NCBI RefSeq assembly: GCF_030296015.1
Contig: NZ_AP027368.1
Span: forward strand, 1,302,001-1,366,000
DNA from: Ferrimonas sp. YFM
GTDB taxonomy: Bacteria > Pseudomonadota > Gammaproteobacteria > Enterobacterales > Shewanellaceae
DNA: 64,000 bases
Direction: 5' to 3'
Positions within the stretch are counted from its first letter, which is position 1. The number at the start of each line of letters is the position of its first letter. Positions 38,376 to 46,114 of this stretch are shown piece after piece. Below the pieces are notes generated by a model that was not told the DNA's origin, ran no database searches, and saw only the letters and a list, made by a program, of their open reading frames with translations. The translations under genes were made by a program, and so were the position numbers.

Positions 38376-38822
38376 TCAGGCTTTGCCTTCGGCCTCTTTC
38401 TTCCTGGCTTCAGCCAGCTTGGTGTTGGCCTGACTGAGCTCGGCGGTGATGCTCATGATCTCACTGCGTTTGGCATCCAGCAGTTTCTGTTTGGCTTCCG
38501 GGTCCATCTCTTTGCTTTTGAGCTCTTCCAGTTGCTCCTTGGCCTTCTCCAGCCTCTCCTTGATCAGCTTGATCGACTGTTTGATTCGCTCGATAGCAGG
38601 AGATTCCTTCTTCTCAGACTTCTTGCTCTCTCCAGTGGTGGCCTGCTCGCCGGCCAGTTTCTGTCTGGCTTCCTGGGAGATGCTGACGGTGATGCGGTTC
38701 TCCTTTGGCGTGGACACATTGCCTTTGGGGGCGGTGGTGCCGGCGTCGGTGGCGGGCACGGCTTCCCGGCCCTGGGAGGTGGCCAGGGTGATGTTGCTGC
38801 CCTGATGTTGAGAGATCTGCAT
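38376..38822 (-). CDS. Coiled-coil hypothetical protein
   Basis: A 148-residue protein of unknown function. The first 75 residues are low in hydrophobics and rich in Ser/Thr/Gln (MQISQHQGSNITLATSQ) with an ISQEARQKLAGEQ segment. The second half is a highly charged heptad-like coiled coil (IKLIKERLEKAKEQLEELKSK). It has no signal peptide or membrane segment. The start at 38822 follows CAGGAGCTCTCC. It is the first gene of the accessory segment that separates uraA from the DUF2066-hda genes. Candidate roles such as a flagellum-associated or structural protein are speculation. Confidence 0.75.
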   Translation of the reverse strand: MQISQHQGSNITLATSQGREAVPATDAGTTAPKGNVSTPKENRITVSISQEARQKLAGEQATTGESKKSEKKESPAIERIKQSIKLIKERLEKAKEQLEELKSKEMDPEAKQKLLDAKRSEIMSITAELSQANTKLAEARKKEAEGKA

Positions 38823-39009
38823 GGAGAGCTCCTGTTGACGGTCTGATGGTGAGTGTATCGGCAGCATATAGAATCACTTGAGAGTGATTACGGGAGATAA
38901 CTCAAATAAATCAGTAAGTAAAAGTAAGCGTTGGTTTGAACAAGGGAATAAGAAGGGACAGAGCCTTGTCCGTCACCTTCATTACTTTCTGTTGGCGGAG
39001 AGTATTGGT

Positions 39010-39747
39010 TTAGTTGGGTAATTTAAGATACTGAATGTAGTAATTCAGATGCTGGATATCCACCAGAGAGACCAGAGCATCCAGATCTTCTACGGCCAAA
39101 GTGCCATATTTTTTCCGAATCATCTCCTGGCCAATCAACTCTTTAATTACTGAGATGCAATATTGTTTGGTCACCCCGGAGAAGCTGGCGATATCTTCAT
39201 ATTTCAGTGGCGCATCTCGAAACTCGATCTCATGCCCATAGAGAAAGATGATCACCAGGCACATGATGATGTGTTGTTTCTTATCCAACAGGCTGCTCAT
39301 CACCGACCAGTCACGGGTGGCGGCATTGCTGATTTCATAACGTCGCAGGCAGAACTCAAAAAGGGCTTCTGATCTGCCGGCCAGGCGGTGCAGACAGTGA
39401 CCAGGAATGGCCCGAAGTACTGTGTTGTCCAGTGCCACATAGCTTTTGTTCAGCCAGGGGTTGATGCCATTGGGGGCATGGCTGGTGAGCAGGGTCTTGG
39501 GTAGCCAAATGCCGGTGACTTTACTGAGCTCAGCCGGATAGTCCACCACCTCCTTGAGTACACCACTCTCGACGAAGTTCAGGGCGGCTTCCTGAAAGCT
39601 GGGCAGGAAGCACTCACCTTTTTTGAGTTTTATCAGGAAGCTCTGATCCAATATCTCGGCGGTGAGAGGTTCATCTATGCCGTTTCGGAGCAAAAGATCA
39701 GTCAGGGTGTCCGGAGGAGGGGACCAAGAAAAGCTGGGGTTCTTCAT
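39010..39747 (-). CDS. Crp/Fnr-type transcriptional regulator-like protein
   Basis: A 245-residue protein with the two-domain layout of the Crp/Fnr family: an N-terminal beta-rich cyclic-nucleotide-binding-like domain (about 30-130, LIKLKKGECFLP) and a C-terminal winged helix (LKYEDIASFSGVTKQYCISVIKELIGQEMIRKKYGTL split at about 190-235). The cNMP-binding Arg/Glu signature is not conserved and there is no N-terminal Cys cluster, so it is neither a typical CRP nor a typical FNR. It is divergent from the flagellin-protease gene and could control it. The start choice is uncertain; one 63 bases upstream is possible. Confidence 0.75.
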   Translation of the reverse strand: MKNPSFSWSPPPDTLTDLLLRNGIDEPLTAEILDQSFLIKLKKGECFLPSFQEAALNFVESGVLKEVVDYPAELSKVTGIWLPKTLLTSHAPNGINPWLNKSYVALDNTVLRAIPGHCLHRLAGRSEALFEFCLRRYEISNAATRDWSVMSSLLDKKQHIIMCLVIIFLYGHEIEFRDAPLKYEDIASFSGVTKQYCISVIKELIGQEMIRKKYGTLAVEDLDALVSLVDIQHLNYYIQYLKLPN

Positions 39748-40109
39748 CAATTTCGTCTGTTCAACCTTGATTGTTTGCTGCAGCCACCACTTGTTACAAC
39801 CGGGCCACAATGTCAGTTATTGTCGTCAAAGTCTTCACGTGTTTTGAGGGGAGAGCCGGTTGGATTCCGCCGAAGCCATTCTTTTGAGGCTTTTTTTTAA
39901 AGATTGGAACGTTAAAAGAAAAAGAGTAAAAAAAATGTGAATGACCACTTTACAGGGTTTTTGACTGAGAAATGGGTTCTATCACCGTCCGGAGCGGAGT
40001 CTATCACATCCATTAGTGTTTGAATGGTCAACGGGTTTACCATTTGCGGTCTGTTCTGCGAATTTATTTTATCTTTGTTACATTCGGCTCAAAAACGTCA
40101 GTTTGTGTA
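39748..40109. other. AT-rich divergent region upstream of the flagellin gene
   Basis: About 360 bases, clearly richer in A/T than the flanks (A-tract at 39902-39937 region). It contains a short hairpin with a T-run at 39873-39898 (5-bp stem). No gene is supported. The promoter of the Crp-like gene must lie here; the flagellin promoter is annotated separately. Confidence 0.5.
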
Positions 40110-40136
40110 TAAAGTCGCTATTGAGTTCGCCGATAT
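40110..40136 (+). promoter_or_regulatory. Sigma-28 (FliA) promoter of the flagellin gene
   Basis: TAAA at 40110-40113, a 15-base spacer and GCCGATAT at 40129-40136. This matches the FliA consensus TAAA-N15-GCCGATAA at all but one position. Transcription should begin near 40144, about 32 bases before the GTG start. Confidence 0.85.
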
Positions 40137-40175: not shown

Positions 40176-41972
40176 GTGCGAATTGCCACAAATACGACAT
40201 CGATGTTCACCAACCAGTTGCTGCAACGCAGCAGCAGTGGTGTTGCGTCGTCGATGGAGAGGATGTCGTCTGGGCTAAGAATCAACTCGGCAAAGGACGA
40301 TGCGGCCGGGTTGCAGATTACCAATAGGCTAACCTCGCAAATTAATGGGCTTAATGTCGCGATTAAGAATGCATCTGATGCCATCTCGATGGCGCAAACT
40401 GCAGAGGGCGCCGTTCAGGAGGTGACCGAGTCCCTGTTTCGTATCCGTGACCTTAGCTTGCAAGCGGCGAACGGCTCGAACAGTGATGAGGACAGGAAAG
40501 CGCTTCAGAAAGAGGCGGCCGCTCTGTTGGAGGAGATTGACCGAACCAACACCACCACCTCGTTTGGTGGCAAAAGGTTGTTCAAGGAAACCGATGCTTC
40601 CCGGGTGGATCCTGTGGAGAGGGAGATCGTCAGTAAGCTTGCCAACAGCTGGCTGAAAGAGTCTGAGGACTTGATTAAGGATAAGCTGGGTATTGATGGC
40701 AAGAACACCACGCTGAAGATCGACCTTGAGCATATGGATGGGCCTGGTGGAACGGCGGCCAGTGTTTCCTCCCTGGTTGCGGGCAGTACCGCCTATAACC
40801 AGGTGATGACCATTGATCTTGACGATTTTGGCGCCGGTGCCGGTGGAGGCAGTCTCGAGTTGGATGAAACCATCCTTCACGAGATGGTGCACGCTATTCA
40901 AGGGGCGAACTTCGATAAATGGGGAAGCACTGCGACCTGGTTTAAAGAGGGCAGCGCCGAGGTGATGCGTGGGGCCGACGACAGGTTGAGTGCGGATATC
41001 GCCAATAATGGTGGCGGTGCCACAGGCATTGGCGCCATCTGGACTCAGCTCAAAGCGGATGTGGCCAGTACAGCCAACCCGGGCACGGCCATTGAAACGG
41101 CAGCCGCCTATTCCGGCGGTTATGTGGTCAACCGCTACATTGACCATGAGCTGGGTGGTGGTGGACTGAAGGCGGTCAACACGGCCATGGCTGGCGGTGC
41201 CACCCTGGACGCGGCCCTTAACACCGCTTCCGGAGGCCGATGGACCGACGTCAATGCTCTGTTCGCTGAGCTCGATGGCGCAGGTGGCGGTGGTGCGGCG
41301 ACCAAGTTTGAGGAGTTCATCAATACCCAGATGAATCTCTCCAATGCCGACAATGGCTCATTGGCCGGTTTCGATGTGACTGGCAGTGGCCCAGAGCTGG
41401 ACAATGTGATGCAGGGTGTCACCGGAGATGGCAGCGGTGCGGCCTCCTTCGATGAGTACTTTGTGTCCGGTGACGATGACAACGACGACAGCGACTTTGC
41501 CCCGGGCAGTTATGACCCGACGGGTATCGGCGCGACGGAAGTTGCTCTGGCTGACTATGCTCCGGAGATCGGTGAGGGAGAGGGTGGGTATCAGATTGCT
41601 GCCCAGGTTGGCGCCAATGCCCATGAGGAGATTACCTTCAACCTCGGCAGCTTTGGCACCAAGTATCTGGGATTGGACAGAGTCGATCTGACCAAGGACC
41701 CTCAATCGGCCATCGAAGCGGTGGATGATGCGCTCAAGATTGTTGATTCGTCACGGGCCTCATTGGGGGCAACGGTGAACCGCCTGGAGCACACCATCTC
41801 CAACTTGACCAATATCACCGAGAACACCTCGGCCAGTCGTTCCCGAATTCGGGATACGGACATGGCAAAAGAGTCCTCGAAACTGGCCAAGCAACAGGTG
41901 CTGCAACAGTCCGCCTCGGCGATGTTGGCTCAGGCCAATCAGCTGCCGTCTGCGGCATTGTCTCTGCTGTAA
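40176..41972 (+). CDS. Flagellin with embedded zinc metalloprotease domain (flagellinolysin type)
   Basis: A 598-residue flagellin whose hypervariable region is replaced by a protease. Residues 1-140 are the flagellin N-terminal D0/D1 helices ([33 protein letters not shown]) and about 505-598 the C-terminal ones ([20 protein letters not shown]). Between them, [10 protein letters not shown] gives a HExxH zinc site (His235, Glu236, His239) and [12 protein letters not shown] the probable third ligand Glu258, a gluzincin layout. An Asp-rich stretch (GDDDNDDSD, 432-440) may bind calcium. This matches flagellinolysins, which polymerise into filaments and digest proteins outside the cell. The start is a GTG at 40176 after TAAGGGG. 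No other flagellar gene is nearby. Confidence 0.93.
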
Positions 41973-41981
41973 CAAGCCCAC

Positions 41982-42013
41982 AAAAAAAGCCCCGTCGCAG
42001 TTGCGGCGGGGCT
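41982..42013 (-). terminator. Hairpin after the flagellin gene, terminator in minus orientation
   Basis: An 11-bp stem (one G-T pair) at 41988-41998/42003-42013, loop of 4. The seven-A run precedes it, so the T-tract is on the minus strand. On the plus strand the stem has no T-run after it and may act only as a weak stop. Confidence 0.7.
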
Positions 42014-44154: not shown

Positions 44155-46050
44155 TTAGTGGTTTTCCAGCTTCCAGTCCGGAGCCCTGCCCAGGTGGCGG
44201 TGCTGTCCCTCCTTGGGGGAGAGCAGGGGTGGCATGGCCTGGACCCGCGGGGCCGAGGTGGCCTCTTCCAGGGTCAGATTCTGGGCCCAGCTTTCGCCGC
44301 TGCGCATCTGGTTGGGGCTGGGGAGCCCTGAGATCACCTGGTCGGCGTTCAAGGAGGGCATCAGCTCGGTGAGCACCAGGTCCAGCCTGGGCAGTATCGC
44401 CGTTTCGCCGATGCGGCCCCGCTGGCCCCAGTCCACGGTGATGCTGGAGGCGGAGACCTGCTCAGGCAGGTCGGTGACCGCCACATCCCGGCGAATCTCA
44501 TACCTGTGCATCATCATCGCCTCTTCAAACAGCATCGCCAGATCCTCTCTGGAGGTGGAGTAGCTGTAGTCGTCGTTGGCACGGTCGCCGGAGAAGAAGG
44601 CGGTGATGTCATCGGGCTGGTAGCTCTTCTGCAGGGTGGTGGCCTTGGTGCCTCTGAACTGCACGTCAGCCAGCGCCTTCATCTCGCTGCTTTGCAGCGG
44701 CAGGTCCCGGGTCAGGTGATCGGAGATCAGGGCATTCTGTTCGCTGCGCTGATAGAAGGCCTCAAGCAGGGTGGCACTGTTGATGCTGTCCCAGGTGCTG
44801 CTGGGGAAGAAGTCATTGGCATGGGCCAACTCGTGGTAGAGCAGGCTGGCCAGGTCGGGCTCCAGGGCGCCCAGGCTGCGGCTCGCTTCTAGGTGGGGCG
44901 GGTAGTAGACGCTGGCGTAGCTGTTGCCCTTTACATAGCGCCAGGGAAGCAGGAAGTTCAGTTCGCTGCCGAAGCCGCTGCGAAAATCCGGATCTTCATT
45001 GATGGTGGCCATCTGCCAGGGAGCCTGCCACAGATCCGACGGGTCAAGATAGATGGCGCCGGTGGCGACCCAGTAGAAGGAGGGGCGAACATCGGAACTG
45101 ATCACCACAGCGGTAACCGCACCCAGCAGGCGGCGGAAGTCGCCATGGGTGTCGCGCTGTTCCAGGAAGCGCTTAAAGGCGTCCCCCATCCAGGGGTGGG
45201 AGACCACCACCCGCTCCATCACCTGGTCCACCGTGGGGTTCGGGTGGCTCTGCCCCAGCAGCGGCAGGGTCTCTATGCGGCAGGGGGAGGAGGAGGTCAA
45301 CTGAGTGGAGTAGACGCAGCGCCCCAGGGCATCGGCCCAGGGGGAGTCTGAATCCCAGGCGACCACTCGGGCCAGGGGGGAATCAAACAGGGCGCCGGAG
45401 ACCGGCGAAGGTTCGGCGGTGACCAGCAGGTAGGCGTTGTCAGCGACATTCTGGCCATTGTCACTGGCGCTGGCGCTGATGCGAATCAGGGTGTCCTGGG
45501 TCACTGCGGGGGCGGTAAAGGTCAGCAGTTCAGGGTCACTGTTGTCCATGTTGCTGATGTCAGGACCGGAGCGCTGCTGCCAGCTGATGTTCTGCAGGGG
45601 CTGGCTGCGATCGCCGCTGCGACCCAGGCGCATGGAGACCCGTCCGCCGGAGGGCACCACCTGATCCCCTCGGATCCGGGTTGCCGACACCGGCTCCGTG
45701 GTGCTGATGTCCACAGGCGCTTGGATGACGTTGCCCTGGGTGTCGGTTATGGTTAGCTGAAACTCGTAGAGGGTTGCCTGGGGCGCCTCGAACGCCGCCA
45801 TGGGCGATCTGGGGTTGGTGATGTTGACCGCCGGCCCTGAGACTTGAGACCACTGGAAGCTGAGATCCCGGCTGGGGACACCATCGACGGTGGCCACCAG
45901 GGCCACACTGCCGTCGGCCGCCGGGCTCAGGTTCAGCCTCAGCTGTGACGAGGGAGGAAGCGGCGTGGGATCAGGGGAGGAACCTCCGCCTCCTCCGCCA
46001 CAGGCGGCGAGCAGAGTTAAGGCGGTCAGTGCAATCCAGTGCTTCTTCAT
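44155..46050 (-). CDS. Large lipoprotein with Ig/PKD-like repeats and a HExxH putative metallopeptidase domain
   Basis: A 631-residue lipoprotein (LTLLAAC, Cys17, then a glycine/serine linker). Two beta-rich Ig/PKD-like modules follow (about 36-118 with FQWSQVSGPAVNITNP, and 125-212 with ISWQQRSGPDISN). The C-terminal half holds SLLYHELAHANDFF, a zinc-type HExxH (His406, Glu407, His410); a downstream helix with REDLAMLFEEAMM could supply the third ligand. This suggests a surface or periplasmic metallopeptidase, but I recognise no named family. The start at 46050 is set by the lipobox. It is the last gene on its strand after bepA-arsC-DUF2069. Confidence 0.8.
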   Translation of the reverse strand: MKKHWIALTALTLLAACGGGGGGSSPDPTPLPPSSQLRLNLSPAADGSVALVATVDGVPSRDLSFQWSQVSGPAVNITNPRSPMAAFEAPQATLYEFQLTITDTQGNVIQAPVDISTTEPVSATRIRGDQVVPSGGRVSMRLGRSGDRSQPLQNISWQQRSGPDISNMDNSDPELLTFTAPAVTQDTLIRISASASDNGQNVADNAYLLVTAEPSPVSGALFDSPLARVVAWDSDSPWADALGRCVYSTQLTSSSPCRIETLPLLGQSHPNPTVDQVMERVVVSHPWMGDAFKRFLEQRDTHGDFRRLLGAVTAVVISSDVRPSFYWVATGAIYLDPSDLWQAPWQMATINEDPDFRSGFGSELNFLLPWRYVKGNSYASVYYPPHLEASRSLGALEPDLASLLYHELAHANDFFPSSTWDSINSATLLEAFYQRSEQNALISDHLTRDLPLQSSEMKALADVQFRGTKATTLQKSYQPDDITAFFSGDRANDDYSYSTSREDLAMLFEEAMMMHRYEIRRDVAVTDLPEQVSASSITVDWGQRGRIGETAILPRLDLVLTELMPSLNADQVISGLPSPNQMRSGESWAQNLTLEEATSAPRVQAMPPLLSPKEGQHRHLGRAPDWKLENH

Positions 46051-46114
46051 AGGCTCTCTCCCATAGGGGGTTAACATGGGTGCAGCTGGCCTCCCTGGCC
46101 TGCCCGTACCCTTT

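Follow-up and report, generated by a model that had tools for sequence, protein, structure and literature searches.

Background

Flagellinolysins, or proteolytic flagellins (MEROPS M101; PMC7643111), make the flagellar filament a protease array. For the family member of Clostridium haemolyticum, localisation to the filament and proteolytic activity are both reported (PMC5595980), and for a relative from Hylemonella gracilis a calcium-dependent activity is described that includes cleavage of another species' flagellin (PMC7643111); proteolysis by such relatives is zinc- and calcium-dependent (PMC5595980, PMC7643111). A biofilm proteomics study of P. tunicata mentions a proteolytic flagellin as well as two flagellins enriched in biofilm (PMC12153261). 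The present work concerns a gene of this family in Ferrimonas sp. YFM, located within a 64,000-nt stretch of contig NZ_AP027368.1 (positions 1,302,001 to 1,366,000; hereafter, the window). The gene occupies positions 40176–41972 of the forward strand, begins with GTG and encodes 598 aa; a preliminary description, made from the sequence, had read its product as a flagellin carrying a zinc metalloprotease domain.

Identity and domain structure of the protein

That this protein is a flagellinolysin is confirmed by a curated family model, by invariant motif residues and by a collagenase-like domain model. NCBIfam NF033876, the equivalog model for flagellinolysin, matches residues 110–530 with 289.7 bits (cut-off 205). 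Flagellin ends flank the peptidase, with Pfam Flagellin_N scoring 129.8 bits (cut-off 26.6) on the D0/D1 region at residues 3–139 (40182–40592) and Flagellin_C scoring 89.2 bits (cut-off 23) on the D1/D0 region at residues 513–598 (41712–41969). Between them lies a gluzincin metallopeptidase domain, modelled here as residues 140–480 (40593–41615), which harbours HEMVH as the predicted zinc-binding and catalytic motif (residues 235–239, 40878–40892) and then the sequence EGSAE (residues 258–262, 40947–40961), in which E258 is separated from H239 by 18 residues. In the latter, E258 is the predicted third zinc ligand, A261 the so-called basement residue and E262 the next glutamate. An Asp-rich stretch, DDDNDDSD, follows at residues 433–440 (41472–41495), with a possible role in Ca2+ binding or as a loop. 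The flagellin termini, the motif with its distal glutamate and the Asp-rich stretch had all been pointed out in the preliminary description, and each stands at the position given.

Conservation was assessed by searching residues 140–500 against 5.8 billion proteins at E ≤ 0.001, scoring being confined to the 7,991 candidates with the most words in common. This returned 81 proteins, amongst which those named at source include flagellinolysins of Ferrimonas futtsuensis, Ferrimonas sp. SCSIO 43195, F. aestuarii, Pseudoalteromonas denitrificans, Thalassotalea and Peribacillus glennii. The query and 78 of these homologues were aligned (79 rows), with three short proteins of 361–437 aa excluded; HEMVH is present in two of the latter, and the third, P0040, is without HExxH. 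All 79 rows match NF033876 (E ≤ 0.001), and in every one of them D214, H235, E236, H239, W255, F256, E258, G259, E262 and D268 are unvaried, with A261 conserved in 78. Motif residues remain intact down to identities of 34–38 %. Conservation of the Asp-rich stretch is partial, extending to 68 rows for D433, 64 for D435 and 68 for D440.

With regard to the fold, searches with the whole protein gave flagellins alone among the matches listed, and the protease domain was therefore modelled separately. The AlphaFold model of residues 140–480 has a predicted local distance difference test score (pLDDT) of 87.8 and a predicted template modelling score (pTM) of 0.88, and its fold is, as modelled, clearly gluzincin-like. 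HEMVH lies within a predicted helix at residues 229–245 and E258 within the following one (254–265), in keeping with the helical placement by which the preliminary description proposed to judge the motif. In the comparison with M9 and other gluzincin peptidases that it also proposed, the best VIA-align rows are the peptidase domains of the clostridial collagenases G and T. Kinship with M9 in particular draws on published work together with a small VIA-align margin, and several results weigh against it: collagenases lead M1 peptidases by less than one Z unit; Foldseek gives the modelled domain no match at E ≤ 0.001, its best being an M1 peptidase at 0.016; and Pfam places on the domain a sub-threshold Peptidase_MA_2 alone (20.1 versus 32.4 bits). 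The Peptidase_M9 profile gives the query no match at E ≤ 0.001, but PF01752, a collagenase/M9 accession, is precomputed for some homologues (e.g. P0008, P0009, P0011 and P0040).

Promoter and flagellar context

Upstream of the gene, an exact match to the sigma-28 pattern TAAA-N15-GCCGATA occurs on the forward strand at 40110–40135 (TAAAGTCGCTATTGAGTTCGCCGATA). It is the sole exact match in the window, where 0.02 would be expected, and one of nine in the 4,662,746-base single-contig genome. As judged by Pfam, the genes nearest downstream of the other eight encode FlgO, FlgM, the polar flagellin, FlaG and MotY, i.e. five flagellar products, and members of three families without flagellar names, DUF5610, VC2046 and DUF480. 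Genomes are labelled here as G000 (the genome analysed), G012 (F. futtsuensis) and G007 (F. aestuarii), with further numbers for others. Exact sites also precede the flagellinolysin genes of G012, G025, G300, G347 and G329, and sites with one mismatch those of G007 and G031, the latter with a 16-base spacer. An orphan position combined with a late-flagellar promoter of its own looks usual for flagellinolysin genes in the eight loci examined.

Searching the genome for Flagellin_N, as had been suggested for locating the main flagellins, identified five places: the flagellinolysin, the polar flagellin (490 aa), a second flagellin (283 aa) and two proteins that, from their sequence and genomic place, are read as FlgL. 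The Flagellin_C search confirms three flagellins. As there are two FlhA genes, the genome encodes two export systems. The end of the polar flagellin gene lies 152.8 kb from the flagellinolysin gene, so that the early view of a gene orphaned from other flagellar genes and driven by its own sigma-28 promoter is upheld, a possible sigma-28-dependent neighbour at 38376–38822 (see below) excepted. The flagellinolysin ends are 60.1 % (N-terminal, residues 1–138) and 66.3 % (C-terminal) identical to those of the polar flagellin, compared with 46.4 and 44.7 % for the second flagellin, and because of this closer similarity the polar filament is favoured as its destination. Judging from these sequences, the protein most likely serves the polar filament as a minor subunit that carries a protease.

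Proposed role and alternative explanations

In the mechanism envisaged, sigma-28 (FliA) would activate the gene late in flagellar assembly, alongside flgM, flaG and the polar flagellin gene; the polar flagellar apparatus would export the product, which would co-polymerise as a minor subunit amongst polar flagellin. The protease domain would then project from the filament surface, bind zinc, and cleave peptides in the vicinity of the cell along with proteins that are unfolded or exposed, as has been shown for the C. haemolyticum and H. gracilis relatives. Candidate purposes include peptide feeding, action on biofilm matrix and the cutting of flagella of other bacteria. The preliminary description had likewise proposed protease sites in the thousands on the flagella, a degradative role and a minor or conditional flagellin, all of which stay at the level of inference. 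As a whole, the explanation of a sigma-28-driven flagellinolysin acting as a minor protease subunit in the polar filament is considered highly probable.

A number of observations count against this explanation. The C-terminal end is equally similar (66.3 %) to that of another flagellinolysin, and its likeness to the polar flagellin is no proof of co-assembly. With regard to the promoter, three of the eight other exact sites precede the families without flagellar names. The gene is missing in nine of 14 Ferrimonas genomes, and is therefore dispensable.

A distinctly unlikely alternative is that the protease is released via the flagellar export channel rather than built into the filament, the flagellin ends serving mainly as an export signal. 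The position of the gene as an orphan under its own sigma-28 promoter would suit such a role, and secretion rather than embedding is raised in PMC7643111 by analogy with Campylobacter FlaC; however, both D0/D1 halves are complete and conserved to the final residue, which is more than export alone needs, and in C. haemolyticum filaments only one protein is more abundant than the family member (PMC5595980). That the protein is instead an inactive or purely structural flagellin, with a metalloprotease-like domain that no longer works, could be entertained given how often related genomes are without the gene, but is very improbable when the motif residues are invariant in 79 rows, down to 34–38 % identity, and an open frame is retained in five Ferrimonas genomes whose domains differ by up to 42 %. 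The notion of a chance motif within the hypervariable region of an ordinary flagellin has already been refuted and retains a negligible probability. HExxH alone is fairly common, arising in 0.34 % of 200,000 shuffles of residues 139–512, but HExxH-x17-22-E arises in 0.11 % and HExxH-x18-E-x3-E in 0.001 % of the same shuffles; together with the NF033876 match, the invariant residues and the modelled gluzincin fold, this rules out coincidence.

Distribution and history of the locus

Flagellinolysin is infrequent amongst relatives of this organism. Of the family's 146 genomes, five have an NF033876 match above the cut-off, and each of these is a Ferrimonas (5 of 14 in the genus); when 394 genomes of the order were searched at protein level, six matches emerged at E ≤ 1e-30, in three genera. 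The nearest named relative, F. futtsuensis, has a 96 % identical gene. In G000, G012, G025 and G031 the gene sits between uraA and a gene for a DUF2066 protein, which in six other genomes (G029, G027, G018, G021, G015 and G035) are approximately 130–220 bp apart; G033 and G002 have other DNA at this place. In G007 the gene is at a different place from that in the other Ferrimonas genomes, and the uraA/DUF2066 junction was not seen; a tandem tRNA-Glu/tRNA-Ala array of five tRNA genes lies directly before it (locus L132, G007:C11, 15–624). G023 has no flagellinolysin, yet a broken piece of the neighbouring gene for a 148-aa orphan protein remains. The DUF2066 protein of G023 is 82 % identical to that of G000, compared with 69 % for those of G025 and G031. 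The simplest reading is gain in an ancestor of six genomes, i.e. the five flagellinolysin carriers and G023, followed by loss in G023.

Ferrimonas therein provides a clean and genetically simple setting, with a single polar structural flagellin and a perfect sigma-28 promoter of the type common to known flagellar genes. It also offers orthologues in five Ferrimonas genomes, gene loss in a close relative (G023) and six genomes in which the flanking genes adjoin.

Beyond the genus, the flagellinolysin gene of locus L163 (G300:C125) lies amongst three peptidase genes, one M1 and two S9, and peptidase neighbours are also reported in PMC5595980. In loci L164 and L165 (G347 and G329) a NUDIX gene adjoins the flagellinolysin gene; a NUDIX neighbour is likewise described near the H. 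gracilis gene (PMC7643111), which may be coincidence.

Neighbouring genes and features

Right after the flagellinolysin stop codon, a highly stable 11-bp hairpin is found at 41988–42013 of the forward strand (fold −24.1 kcal/mol, z −4.69), and possibly constitutes the terminator or mRNA end of the gene. There is no T run after it on the forward strand, and it is absent from the terminator-scan list. Because an A run precedes the hairpin, it could stop transcripts arriving from the opposite strand.

On the other side, a gene for a 148-aa orphan protein (38376–38822, reverse strand; likely start ATG 38822) is transcribed away from the flagellinolysin gene. Upstream of it, pattern searching detected a sigma-28-like site at 38856–38881 of the reverse strand (TCAAGTGATTCTATATGCTGCCGATA), with one mismatch (TCAA for TAAA); an in-frame ATG at 38867 falls inside this match. 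The same site, with its one mismatch, occurs in G012 as in G000. The G025 counterpart has an exact site, faces away from the flagellinolysin gene and has no gene between, whilst that of G007 has a site with one mismatch and is located elsewhere. Sites with one mismatch number 57 genome-wide against 42 for a reversed control pattern, little over background, so that a site of this quality is weak by itself; it gains weight because of its place and the exact site in G025. The protein is probably a coiled coil, and has no Pfam match above any cut-off. Membership of the FlxA-like family (PF14282) was considered and rejected, one of four relatives giving E 0.28 and none exceeding the cut-off. Searching with the protein gave three matches (itself, a 95 % relative and an F. 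futtsuensis protein) and nothing beyond Ferrimonas-like sequences. Relatives occur in six of the 14 Ferrimonas genomes: the five flagellinolysin carriers, with the gene intact in four and broken in G031, and G023 with its remnant.

Together, these observations make the orphan a candidate late-flagellar gene accompanying flagellinolysin. A bolder reading, in which Ferrimonas flagellinolysin is paired with a lineage-specific coiled-coil partner, expressed from a divergent sigma-28 promoter and either acting as a chaperone for export or preventing the protease from cleaving flagellin inside the cell, is unlikely. The co-occurrence could also stem from common ancestry of the six related genomes, and the broken state of the orphan gene in G031, where the flagellinolysin gene is intact, argues against its being essential as a partner. 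The two genes are on different contigs in G007, and at the three flagellinolysin loci read in other genera, approximately 8.5–9 kb contained no divergently transcribed neighbour with a sigma-28 site, up to one mismatch being allowed. A divergent two-gene sigma-28 module is not amongst the flagellinolysin descriptions in the available portions of PMC5595980 and PMC7643111. Were the orphan truly a dedicated partner, the case would matter more, because the safekeeping of a flagellin-cutting protease before export is left unexplained in those same portions.

Between the two sigma-28 genes lies a gene for a Crp/FNR-like regulator (39010–39810, reverse strand; HTH_Crp_2 24.9 bits, just below the cut-off of 27), which occupies this position in G000 and G012 alone. 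Further away, a secreted, lipoprotein-like protein of 640 aa (44155–46077, reverse strand) harbours a PKD domain and a zincin-like LYHELAHA motif, and has no relative amongst solved structures at E ≤ 0.01. It stands beside Hda in G000, G012, G023, G025, G031 and G007, and was not seen in the stretches examined for the remaining eight genomes; as an obligate partner of flagellinolysin it was rejected, since it occurs in G023, which is without the latter.

Comparison with known systems

The Ferrimonas protein extends an already described family rather than founding a kind of its own. NCBI already names Ferrimonas members, and the word 'Ferrimonas' is absent from the main text of PMC5595980 and PMC7643111. 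The F. futtsuensis flagellinolysin (P0001) is an orthologue with no notable difference, 95 % identical over residues 140–500, with the same uraA/DUF2066 locus and the same promoter. From the peptidase domains of the clostridial collagenases ColG, ColT and ColH (MEROPS M9) the protein studied here differs in that these belong to secreted enzymes, not flagellins, and show 15–18 % identity over aligned residues.

With FliA(H) of C. haemolyticum (PMC5595980, Eckhard et al. 2017) the protein shares flagellin ends, HExxH and a hypervariable region that contains a collagenase-like gluzincin domain. The Glu-x2-Ala order is likewise shared, E258/A261 corresponding to Glu262/Ala265 by motif order (PMC5595980). 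Differences lie in the third ligand, which in FliA(H) follows the second His after 24 residues (233–237, Glu262) rather than 18, and in the gene, which is part of a flagellar cluster there (PMC7643111) and an orphan in Ferrimonas. HgrFlaMP of H. gracilis (PMC7643111) is likewise a flagellinolysin from a Gram-negative organism, and its gene too is an orphan; the adjoining genes are non-flagellar and include one for a transcriptional regulator. The neighbours themselves differ, being a NUDIX hydrolase and a MarR-type regulator in H. gracilis, and uracil permease, the Crp-like regulator and the 148-aa orphan here; and whilst the activity of HgrFlaMP is demonstrated (PMC7643111), the Ferrimonas protein is known from sequence and model.
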